From positions 62,001 to 126,000 of the forward strand of contig NZ_MDVC01000091.1 in NCBI RefSeq assembly GCF_002777425.1: a stretch of 64,000 nt of DNA. The letters run 5' to 3'. Source of the stretch: Snodgrassella alvi (GTDB taxonomy: Bacteria; Pseudomonadota; Gammaproteobacteria; Burkholderiales; Neisseriaceae). This document shows, in pieces, positions 26,592-30,017 of this stretch. Position 1 is the stretch's first letter. Each line of letters starts with the position of its first letter. The notes below the pieces were generated by a model. That model did not search any database. It saw only the letters and a program-made list of their open reading frames with translations, and had not been told where the DNA came from. The position numbers and the translations under genes were made by a program.

Positions 26592-26620
26592 TTGCCATGC
26601 ATGCGTATTTGATGCATAAT
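26592..26620 (+). promoter_or_regulatory. Sigma70 promoter for the candidate small RNA
   Basis: A -35 box TTGCCA (26592-26597), an exact 17-bp spacer and a -10 box CATAAT (26615-26620) predict a transcription start near 26627-26628, immediately before the first hairpin of the candidate sRNA. Confidence 0.72.
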
Positions 26621-26627
26621 TCGCTTC

Positions 26628-26716
26628 GTTAAATCAGCTCCTAGTTGGTTTAACAGTTTCTCCTCTATTTCTCCTTTGTAGACTTGGCGCACACTTAACC
26701 GTGTGCGCATTTTTTT
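26628..26716 (+). ncRNA. Candidate trans-acting small RNA with three anti-Shine-Dalgarno motifs
   Basis: The unit is about 89 nt. Stem-loop 1 is a 9-bp stem (26628-26636 with 26646-26654, one G-U) whose loop exposes CTCCT. A single-stranded pyrimidine-rich stretch (26655-26685) follows with two further TCTCCT words, then an 8-bp GC-rich hairpin (26687-26694 with 26701-26708) and a run of seven Ts as terminator and Hfq-tail. Repeated CU-rich segments complementary to Shine-Dalgarno sites resemble the Neisseria sibling sRNAs (NgncR_162/163, RcoF1/2) in logic. Direct homology is my inference and is unproven. No protein-coding frame explains this segment. Confidence 0.72.
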
Positions 26717-26934
26717 ATCTATTTTTCTTTATGCCTACGGTATATATGTCTGGTCATGCCGGAATGCTGCATGGCAACTTTATCTGGGTTATCTGAAAAC
26801 AAATTGCTTTAGCTGATTGTTGCTCATGCTTGTCTGCATATCTAGTGTCTTGTTGATTGGAAGGTTGGCGGTGCTATCGTCTGAAAATAAATATTGCTAG
26901 GATAAATGTTTTACATTTTTAGCAGGAAATGACG

Positions 26935-27325
26935 ATGTCTGGTGAACAGAATCTGCGAATTCTGCTGCAATCGGCTGCGCCGCAGCATAATCCGGGGAAA
27001 TATGTGTTCTGTACTGTGCAGCAACCAGCACCGGCATTGCTGGACGCTGCTGTGGCTACCATACAGGAAAGTGAGGGTGCTACTGATTCTGCCGCAGGCT
27101 GTGGCAGATGCACAGCAGTTCGGCTATGAATATGTTGCTGGCTGGATTACCTTAAAAGTGCATTCTTCTTTGGCGGCAGTAGGACTGACAGCAGCATTTT
27201 CGCATGCACTGGCGCAGCAGAATATCAGCTGTAATGTGGTAGCTGGCTATTATCATGACCATATTTTTGTGGCTGAAGATGGTGTGCAGCAGGCTTCGGT
27301 CATTCTGAACAGTTTAGGTGAATAA
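26935..27325 (+). pseudogene. ACT-domain protein (COG3602-like), frameshifted
   Basis: The first 46 codons (from ATG 26935, AGGA upstream) read L-N-P-G-K-Y-V-F-C-T-V style sequence (here H-N-P-G-K-Y-V-F-C). After 27073 that frame becomes nonsense, and the family sequence continues in the next frame: I-L-P-Q-A-V-A-D-A, G-W-I-T-L-K-V-H-S-S-L-A-A-V-G-L-T-A-A and N-I-S-C-N-V-V-A-G-Y-Y-H-D-H-I-F-V. Removing one G from the GGG at 27075-27077 restores one frame of about 130 codons. It is either a recent pseudogene or a homopolymer sequencing error. Confidence 0.8.
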
Positions 27326-27398
27326 TTGTAGTCGGATAATTGAAATTTGGCTGGCTGATGGTAAAACTGAATAATTGACGTAAATGATAAATGTACAG

Positions 27399-27500
27399 AT
27401 GATGCAATATCAAACACCCTATGCAAAAGATATTAGCGATTTATTTCGTGTTGCAATTCATGTCATTGATGCCGATATTTACACACAAGGCCAGTAGGAA
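27399..27500 (+). pseudogene. Remnant of a GNAT acetyltransferase N-terminus
   Basis: About 32 codons read Y-A-K-D-I-S-D-L-F-R-V-A-I-H-V-I-D-A-D-I-Y, which fits the start of a small GNAT acetyltransferase (D-x-x-x-L-F-R-x-A-V-H). A TAG follows at 27495 and no downstream GNAT motifs are recognisable. A truncated relic is the most likely explanation. Confidence 0.45.
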
Positions 27501-28117
27501 GCATCGTGCTCTACATTTTTTAATATCATATGCAGGCTGAATGATTACAATACATAAATCCATGGATGGCTCTGTTAAATGGTTGCTTAACAGGGTCTAT
27601 CAAGCTGATTTTAAAGTACTGAAAATTGTTTCTGTGCACTTATGTTTATTATTACGCCAGAGGTCGGGGCGATGCGGCAAGGCAAGTTATTGCCGGAAGT
27701 AAATTAGGTTGTTGCGCGACACTTGTATTTGTTGCTGGCATAACTAGCACTGCCTGGTTAGGATGTGCTTAGGCGTTATTCACTGATTGAAACTGTTAGC
27801 TATAAACAGCAGCAGTTGTCTTACCAATAGATTACTGTGGCCGAAAACTAGACATTCATCAGCATTGAAACAGTTATTAAGGCAATTAGGACGTAGACTA
27901 TAGCAAGTTGCCAGAAAAGTGGTTTTTTTCTGGCTAAGAGGAATTATAGTTATTGTTGTTACGGTAGAGTGTGCGCCCGAGCTATGTTTATTTAACTGTT
28001 TCTCAAGCAGGCTATGGCACAGCTAGATAATGAGACGGTGTTACTGGTGAATTTTATTTAGGCTAATAAATAATACAGACTGTGATTAATCTGGCCAGCA
28101 CTTAATACAGCCGGCAT
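27501..28117. other. Noncoding or decayed stretch
   Basis: About 620 bp without any convincing reading frame lies between convergent genes. Short open stretches are interrupted by frequent stops in all frames. Base composition is less AT-extreme than true spacers in this window, which hints at decayed coding sequence, but I recognise no family. Confidence 0.4.
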
Positions 28118-28582
28118 TTATTCCAGGTGTAACATCTGTTCTTCTTTTACTTCCTCCATAACAACATAACTGCGGCTTTCGGCTGCGGCCGGTAGTTGCA
28201 ACAGAATGTTGCCCAGCAGGTTGCGATATGCATGCATATTGGGCAGGCGTACTTTAATCAGGTAATCGTATTCGCCGGAAATCAGGTGACATTCCAGTAC
28301 TTGCGGAATGGTCAGTACTTCACGGCGGAAATCTTCAAAAATATTGCCGGATTTGGAACGCAGTTTGATTTCCACAAACACCAGCAGGCTCTGGTTTAAG
28401 GCGCGCGGATTCAGGCGTGCGTGATAGCCGGTAATGATGTTTTCTCGTTCCAGTCGCCGTACCCGTTCGGTGACGGGAGTAGTGGACAATCCTACCTTGT
28501 CGGCCAGTTCGGTCATGGTGGTACGAGCGTTTTTTTGTAGTAAGGACAGTATCTTCATGTCCACTTTGTCAATATGGTGCAT
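28118..28582 (-). CDS. Lrp/AsnC family transcriptional regulator
   Basis: The 154-residue regulator has an N-terminal winged HTH (about 5-60, I-D-K-V-D-M-K-I-L-S-L-L-Q-K-N-A-R and L-S-T-T-P-V-T-E-R-V-R-R-L) and a C-terminal RAM/ACT-like ligand domain (about 66-145). It is divergent from dadA across a 178-bp spacer. By analogy with Lrp/DadR control of dadAX in other proteobacteria, it probably responds to alanine or another amino acid and regulates dadA. That role is inferred from position only. Confidence 0.92.
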   Translation of the reverse strand: MHHIDKVDMKILSLLQKNARTTMTELADKVGLSTTPVTERVRRLERENIITGYHARLNPRALNQSLLVFVEIKLRSKSGNIFEDFRREVLTIPQVLECHLISGEYDYLIKVRLPNMHAYRNLLGNILLQLPAAAESRSYVVMEEVKEEQMLHLE

Positions 28583-28760
28583 GGTTTATCTATGATATAA
28601 ATGTGATAATTTATAAAAATACTCCTTTTTTTTGTTTAAATAAAGTGAAATTCACTACCATTCTTTGTTTACACTATGAAAAGTAACTAAATGGGCTGTT
28701 TGAGGATTAGGCAATTGAACGGCTGAGATTATTCCGTTTGATTACTAGGGAGACGAGGGA

Positions 28761-30017
28761 ATGAAAGTATTGATTATGGGGGCAGGTATTATTGGTGTAA
28801 GTACTGCCTGGTATCTGGCTAAAGCCGGACACGAAGTTACTGTACTGGAGCGCGCTGATCAGGCCGCGATGGAAACCAGTTTTGCCAATGCCGGCCAGTT
28901 ATCCTATGGCTATACCACACCGTGGGCAGCACCGAATATACCGGCTAAAGTATGGAAATGGCTGTTCAGGGAGCATTCTCCTTTGCTGATTCGCCCTGAT
29001 GGCAGCCTCGCACAATTGCAATGGCTGTGGCAGATGTATCGCAATTGCAATGCACAGAGCTATGCAACTAATAAAGAACGCATGGTACGTATTTCTGAGT
29101 ATAGCCGCGAGATGTTGCAGCAGCTGGAGGCAGAAGAAAATATTCAGTATGAAGGGCGCAAGCAGGGTACTTTGCAAATTTTCCGCACGGAAAAAGAGGT
29201 GATCGATTCCCGTTCTGACATAGCTGTTTTGCAGGAATTCGGTGTGCCGTTGCAGGTACTCAATAGTGTTGCTGAATGTACGCAGTATGAACCAGCACTG
29301 GCACATATGGCCGGAAAGCTGGCCGGTGCATTGTATTTGCCTCAGGATGGTACGGGTGACTGTCATTTATTTACTACTCAGCTGGCCGAAAAGTGTGCGG
29401 CTTTAGGTGTGAAGTTTTTATACCGGCATGCTATTTCGGAAATTCAGCAGGATAAATGCTCGATTAAAGGCGTGCAGGCTAATGGCCAGTGGTTTACTGC
29501 CGACCATTATGTCTGTGCGCTAGGTAGTTTCAGCCGCAATATGCTGAGCAAGCTGGGGATTAATCTGCCAGTTTATCCGGTGAAGGGATATTCACTGACT
29601 ATCCCGATAATTGATCAGGATAAAGCACCGGTTTCTACGATTATTGATGAAACTTATAAGGTGGCGATAACGCGTTTTGATGAACGCATCCGAGCTGGTG
29701 GTATGGCTGAGTTGTCTGGTTATCGTATTGAACTGAACCCAAAACGTAAGGCTACGCTGGACTTGGTAGTTAATGATCTGTTTCCGGGCAGTTGCCATAC
29801 TTCTGAGGCTTTTTTCTGGAGTGGTCTGCGCCCGATGACACCGGACAGTACGCCGATTATTGGTGCCAGCCGTTTTGTGAATCTGTCGTTGAATACTGGC
29901 CACGGTACGCTGGGCTGGACGATGGGGCTGGGTTCGGGAAAAATTCTGGCAGATTTGATTAGTGGGGTTAAGCCAGAAATTGAAACCAGTGATTTATCGC
30001 TGGCACGTTATGTTTAA
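28761..30017 (+). CDS. dadA: D-amino acid dehydrogenase small subunit
   Basis: DadA is a membrane-associated FAD enzyme that oxidatively deaminates D-alanine and other D-amino acids, passing electrons to the respiratory chain. The 418-residue protein has the dinucleotide fold G-A-G-I-I-G-V-S (7-14), the early block [13 protein letters not shown], and the C-terminal [11 protein letters not shown] and T-G-H-G-T-L-G-W motifs. The divergent Lrp-type gene and downstream alanine racemase form a dad-type locus for L-alanine catabolism via D-alanine. Confidence 0.95.

Follow-up and report, generated by a model that had tools for sequence, protein, structure and literature searches.

The window, i.e. 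the whole stretch of 64,000 nucleotides of Snodgrassella alvi DNA that was analysed, carries on its forward strand an sRNA gene (26626–26716, predicted start at about 26626–26628, predicted length about 89–91 nt) that is almost certainly homologous to the sibling sRNAs known in Neisseria as NmsR, NgncR_162/163 or RcoF, and that by orthology would act as an Hfq-assisted blocker of the ribosome-binding sites of catabolic mRNAs. Indeed, the Rfam family RF02877, NmsRb (NmsRB/RcoF1/NgncR_163), matches positions 26626–26714 (+) over the full length of its model (1–91 of 91) with 87.6 bits, the gathering score being 52 (cmscan of the 64 kb against 4227 Rfam families, E 1.7e-12). With such an E-value, the feature as a whole lies, as a sequence, far beyond chance. 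The RNA 26626–26716 is predicted to fold at −29.1 kcal/mol (z −6.8), a value equalled by none of 200 shuffles. Family membership is supported by the Rfam score, the structure, the covariation and the neighbouring lrp gene.

An earlier reading of the letters alone (the sequence-only reading) had proposed an unannotated sRNA gene of about 89 nt, with promoter, stems, anti-Shine-Dalgarno (anti-SD) words and terminator, that would block ribosome-binding sites in a manner akin to NgncR_162/163. The anatomy is confirmed at the sequence level, and the kinship proves to have been understated, as the locus is an actual member of that family. The word "unannotated" was justified insofar as this reading had no annotation at its disposal, but the family itself exists in Rfam. 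Globally, the gene appears real and well conserved, with a predicted transcript, and is an ordinary addition to a known, catalogued family, which in Neisseria dampens central metabolism by masking the ribosome-binding sites of numerous mRNAs; here, it is found as a single copy in a bee-gut relative. If regarded as a newly discovered RNA, this locus adds little. Its interest is that a metabolic regulator studied in Neisseria has a well-supported homologue in a symbiont of the bee gut reported to have a non-canonical TCA cycle (PMC11343714), and that both the role of the second sibling copy and the behaviour of an anti-SD sRNA whose sequence is maintained despite a change of targets can be tested in this system.

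Anatomy of the gene and its anti-SD words

The sigma-70-type promoter (26592–26620, +) includes a −35 box TTGCCA (26592–26597) and a −10 box CATAAT (26615–26620), i.e. 10 matches out of 12 to the consensus, with the 17-bp spacer noted by the sequence-only reading. Taken alone, it does no better than chance, since the surrounding 601-bp region harbours 2 promoter-like sites versus 1.7 ± 1.2 in shuffles. The stretch that follows the −10 box, TCGCTTC (4/7 GC), is only a moderately GC-rich discriminator, to be set against a putative control by (p)ppGpp. Among the homologues, a promoter-like pair with at least 9/12 matches is found 30–50 nt before the first CTCCT in 80 of the 93 copies, a count made without a shuffled control, and the spacer is 17 bp long in 18 of the 19 copies printed. 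The intrinsic terminator (26687–26716, +), found by site search, reads GCGCACAC-TTAACC-GTGTGCGC, A and seven Ts; its stem spans 26687–26708 and the Ts 26710–26716. The same 601-bp region displays 4 terminator-like sites versus 0.4 ± 0.6 in shuffles, a number above chance.

Between promoter and terminator, the predicted fold displays stem-loop 1 (SL1, 26628–26654, +), a link of sequence TTTCTCCTCT (anti-SD 1 region, 26657–26666, +) whose last bases are shared with the arm of the next hairpin, and stem-loop 2 (SL2, 26664–26682, +). The fold agrees with the published description of RF02877 in its number of stem-loops (three) and in the placement of aSD1 in the SL1–SL2 link and of aSD2 within the loop of SL2, and the predicted own promoter and intrinsic terminator of the family are found in the sequence.

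Two TCTCCT words, at 26659–26664 and 26670–26675, correspond to aSD1 (as named in NmsRA) and aSD2 of the NmsR RNAs. These segments were defined experimentally in N. meningitidis, where mutation of either was reported to abolish the repression of the targets tested by NmsRA, except for GltA, which needs aSD2 only (PMC5362039). Both words had been assigned to one single-stranded tract; the first indeed lies in the link, but the second occupies the 9-nt loop of the 5-bp hairpin SL2. In the same way, SL1 had been described as presenting a CTCCT word (26638–26642). In the window fold, its CCT (26640–26642) does form the 3-nt loop, but its CT is paired, so that exposure is partial. Of 151 copies, only 6 have this word at the same position, and they all come from Snodgrassella (window, L020, L024, L025, L026 and L078); it is missing from the Snodgrassella record L009, and L007, L058 and L064, which are among the closest other copies, read CTACA there. 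The SL1 word is a feature of the lineage, and only a putative seed. The proposal of three equivalent seeds is therefore not supported, two words being family-wide and the third half-paired and rarely found at its place. A CTCCT is carried by the opposite arm of SL1 in 5 of the 151 copies (L019, L079, L099, L101 and L109), and the match in L060 and L107 corresponds to an additional anti-SD repeat. Indeed, the upstream copy of Neisseria wadsworthii (L060, 6492–6584) includes an additional CTCCTCTATTT unit that leads to three consecutive anti-SD words, and the same is found in L107.

Distribution, copy number and covariation

The covariance search across the family that the sequence-only reading had suggested reveals RF02877 over the cut-off in 71 of 83 family genomes (74 at E ≤ 0.001), whereas none of 14 control genomes matches at E ≤ 0.001; the filters of this survey were stricter, so that weak matches may be lost. 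The genus of the window comprises 14 genomes, of which 11 display one match, two display two, and one, only 60% complete, displays none. In genus g5, presumably Neisseria (n = 46), 35 genomes have two matches, eight one, one three and two none. The copies of the two-copy members of the window's genus are separated by 305 and 283–284 bases, in agreement with L009 (Snodgrassella sp. CFCC 13594) and L035 (Neisseriaceae bacterium ESL0693), which are presumably the same genomes. Chromobacterium, Aquitalea and Vogesella display one copy per locus, in loci of at most 8 kb. Three tandem NmsR copies (4998, 5452 and 5890) are found in a Neisseriaceae MAG (L019), and three genomes of genus g4 have three RF02877 matches each.

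The genome of the window has a single RF02877 copy over the cut-off and lacks the tandem sibling copies of the family. A tandem pair is not needed for membership, because other family genomes also have one copy. Two further matches at E 4–5 were rejected as additional copies, since 7 of the 14 control genomes also match at this loose threshold, none over the cut-off. The presence of a decayed sibling in the interval leading to lrp was rejected too, as the search of 26700–28800 gave, up to E 10, no more than two implausible eukaryotic matches.

The single copy, together with the failure to find sucC and prpB in this genome, could speak for the locus being an unexpressed relic of the RF02877 family. 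Such a relic is extremely improbable, since both anti-SD segments, SL1, the terminator and the promoter spacing are intact. Furthermore, the window shares an identical stretch of 93 bases with L025, L026 and L078, although over most of their aligned length these loci diverge from the window by 4–11%. Over aligned stretches of 1.2–6.7 kb, the identity of the window is 93.6% and 96.1% to S. gandavensis LMG 30236 (L025) and 92.3–96.3% to S. alvi Nev4-2 (L026), so that the window belongs to a Snodgrassella chromosome.

The structure was also examined in the window and 75 named loci, i.e. 93 copies and 69 distinct sequences. As the pattern used to collect these loci fixed the anti-SD and SL2 stretch, the conservation of this stretch is by construction. 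The upstream copy of L060, an odd row, was excluded from both the alignment, which thus includes 68 sequences, and the tree. Over the 68 distinct homologues, 94.9% of the cells are paired, versus 81.0% in shuffles and 27–49% when the partners are slid. Two-sided changes affect 15 of 25 pairs versus 12.6 in shuffles that keep the relatedness of the sequences in place, and 15 was reached by 1 shuffle out of 500. These changes are found in 9 of the 11 pairs of the SL1 outer helix and in 5 of the 8 pairs of the terminator helix. SL1 and the terminator thus covary; SL2, almost invariant, is uninformative.

In a FastTree phylogeny of the RNAs, the window copy groups with the tyrA-side copies of the two-copy loci L009 and L035 (support 0.979). 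The lrp-side copies of these loci belong to the same larger clade (0.991), with an intervening node of support 0.0. Judged by eye, the promoter looks closer to that of the gonococcal lrp-proximal copy, so that the single copy may correspond to either sibling A or sibling B.

Gene neighbourhood

The gene order in the window is tyrA, the sRNA, an ACT-domain gene lying in two frames, an interval devoid of convincing genes, lrp on the minus strand and a dadA-like gene. The lrp gene (28118–28582, −, Lrp/AsnC domains) lies 1.4 kb downstream of the sRNA and converges with it. The sRNA locus is also next to lrp in N. meningitidis, where NmsRA/B are reported to be located between dsbB and lrp (PMC5362039). 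A convergent downstream lrp was found in 19 of the 75 named loci; among the 56 others, in which it was not found, some end early and others include several kb downstream. In the ACT-domain gene (26929–27325), the N-terminal PF10000 and the C-terminal PF13840 lie in different forward frames, so this is a broken gene or an assembly error. From there to lrp (27326–28117), no ORF of at least 60 aa and only two implausible RNA-family matches were found, and this stretch possibly corresponds to gene remnants.

As tyrA lies upstream on the same strand, the element could be imagined as a terminator or cis element of this gene, devoid of any role in trans. This explanation retains hardly any credit, because the element has its own promoter-like sequence and its own SL1. 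Moreover, no TyrA match was found upstream of the homologues L015, L040 and L021 despite 3.8 to 5.8 kb of upstream DNA; among the 75 loci, tyrA was found in 10 (L007, L009, L020, L024, L025, L026, L035, L058, L064 and L078). In N. meningitidis, the neighbour is dsbB, and the homologue is reported to act in trans on reporters (PMC5362039).

As a homologue of the Neisseria siblings, the window RNA shares with NmsRA/NmsRB (N. meningitidis), NgncR_162/163 (N. gonorrhoeae), RcoF and RF02877 the SL1, the aSD1 link, SL2 with aSD2 in its loop, the terminator, the own promoter (predicted here) and the downstream lrp. It differs from the Neisseria siblings by one copy instead of a tandem pair, by tyrA instead of dsbB upstream, by the two-frame ACT-domain gene between the sRNA and lrp, by the additional CUCCU in SL1 and by a genome without sucC and without prpB over the cut-off.

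Proposed action and relationships with other anti-SD sRNAs

By orthology, the following scheme may be proposed. Transcription of an RNA of about 90 nt would start at a dedicated promoter and stop at a dedicated terminator, both of which are visible in the sequence. It would be bound by Hfq, the gene of which is present in this genome; Hfq dependence, suggested by the sequence-only reading, would fit by analogy with the siblings of Neisseria, for which Hfq binding is reported (PMC9973317). Its two UCUCCU segments, in the SL1–SL2 link and in the SL2 loop, would pair with the Shine-Dalgarno regions of mRNAs encoding catabolic and amino-acid enzymes, and would thus keep ribosomes off these mRNAs when nutrients are plentiful, as reported for Neisseria. 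Deletion of relA is reported to increase NmsR levels in N. meningitidis (PMC5362039), and two RelA/SpoT homologues are encoded by the genome of the window. The same paper reports that E. coli could not be transformed with plasmids carrying nmsRB, even when the vector was of low copy number.

Candidate local targets are dadA, sdhC and gltA, the latter two also being present in this genome. The dadA-like gene (28761–30017, +, DAO domain) would encode a D-amino acid dehydrogenase. In N. gonorrhoeae, dadA is reported as a repressed target whose pairing is predicted to involve the SSR1/aSD1 link segment, mutation of SL2 being without effect (PMC9973317). In the window, the dadA leader gives with the anti-SD region a duplex of −18.0 kcal/mol, the second strongest of 45 window ORFs, the strongest (−19.3) belonging to an ORF with a doubtful start. 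The sdhC and gltA leaders reach −13.7 and −13.5 kcal/mol, and for each of them 6 of the 45 window ORFs are at least as strong. In other Snodgrassella, the dadA leader gives −18.0 (L026), −18.3 (L025), −19.2 (L020) and −17.2 (L078); pairing is moderate in L009 (−13.2) and poor in L024 (−9.2), and the other 9 of the 15 loci range from −11.8 to −19.2. The predicted pairings are suggestive only and the target list is weak, because these plain duplexes ignore accessibility and the ORF with a doubtful start ranks best.

A genome-wide search for AAAGGAGAA-N(2-9)-ATG found 8 places versus 0 for the reversed pattern, a control that is not SD-like. As read, four of these places (L117, L118, L119 and L122) open frames of at most 36 codons. 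Duplexes computed for two of the eight give −19.0, in front of what we take to be a D-lactate-dehydrogenase-like gene, and −13.4, in front of a gene that is presumably alcohol-dehydrogenase-like. Given this control and the short frames of half of the places, targets found in this way were not used as proof.

Searches of this genome for gltA, sdhC, sucC and prpB failed for two of the six direct meningococcal targets: sucC gave no match, and prpB none over the cut-off, with one partial match of 80.3 versus 354.4 bits. The Snodgrassella regulon is therefore probably partly rewired. The failure to find sucC is consistent with a report that, in S. alvi, an acetate:succinate CoA-transferase takes the place of succinyl-CoA synthetase (PMC11343714).

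Another Rfam family, Betaproteobacteria_toxic_sRNA (RF02278), which includes ncS03, ncS05, ncS27 and ncS62 from Burkholderia, also displays UCUCCU repeats around a small hairpin followed by a terminator. Its copies are described as scattered rather than tandem, and their likeness to NmsRs has already been noted (PMC5688073). Assignment of the window RNA to RF02278 instead of NmsRb would rest on these shared repeats and terminator and on a match over 26657–26716 (39.7 bits; E 2.9e-6, 1 kb being searched). It is highly improbable, since this score does not reach the 50 bits required by RF02278 (gathering score) and falls far short of the 87.6 bits of NmsRb, and since the shorter, 64-position model is devoid of SL1, which it leaves uncovered. 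The eight loci from Chromobacterium and its kin all match RF02278 below threshold with E < 0.01. Conversely, among 20 RF02278 loci taken from 120 genomes, eight display an overlapping NmsRb match at E ≤ 1 (best, 0.0005 in L144), none over the cut-off.

The NmsR family thus being retained for the window RNA, the likeness may extend to alphaR8/mmgR/SisA-D (RF00519) from alphaproteobacteria, which share an unpaired pyrimidine word UUUCCUCCCU, a terminator and a reported link to carbon feast and famine (PMC12559287). Matches to RF00519 are weak: E 0.0065 in one of the eight Chromobacterium-kin loci (L075) and E 0.027 in the window, i.e. weaker than an implausible antisense ylbH match (E 0.014). 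Furthermore, 11 of the 20 RF02278 loci match RF02837 anti-hemB at E ≤ 1 (best, 0.00085). The RF02837 and ylbH matches indicate that weak cross-matches are common among terminator-bearing, pyrimidine-rich RNAs, so that the likeness could result from convergence. Among the literature matches listed, no paper treats both NmsR and mmgR. It is conceivable, but rather unlikely, that RF02877, RF02278 and perhaps RF00519 are separately filed branches of an ancient superfamily of anti-SD sRNAs that act as brakes on carbon metabolism in proteobacteria, and that in bee Snodgrassella this brake, surviving mostly as one copy after the loss of part of the Neisseria target set (sucC, prpB), has been re-aimed at amino-acid use and at a modified TCA cycle. 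The genomes G089 and G137, which belong to one family, harbour 9 and 8 RF02278 matches, respectively, at E ≤ 0.001, some of them below the cut-off.
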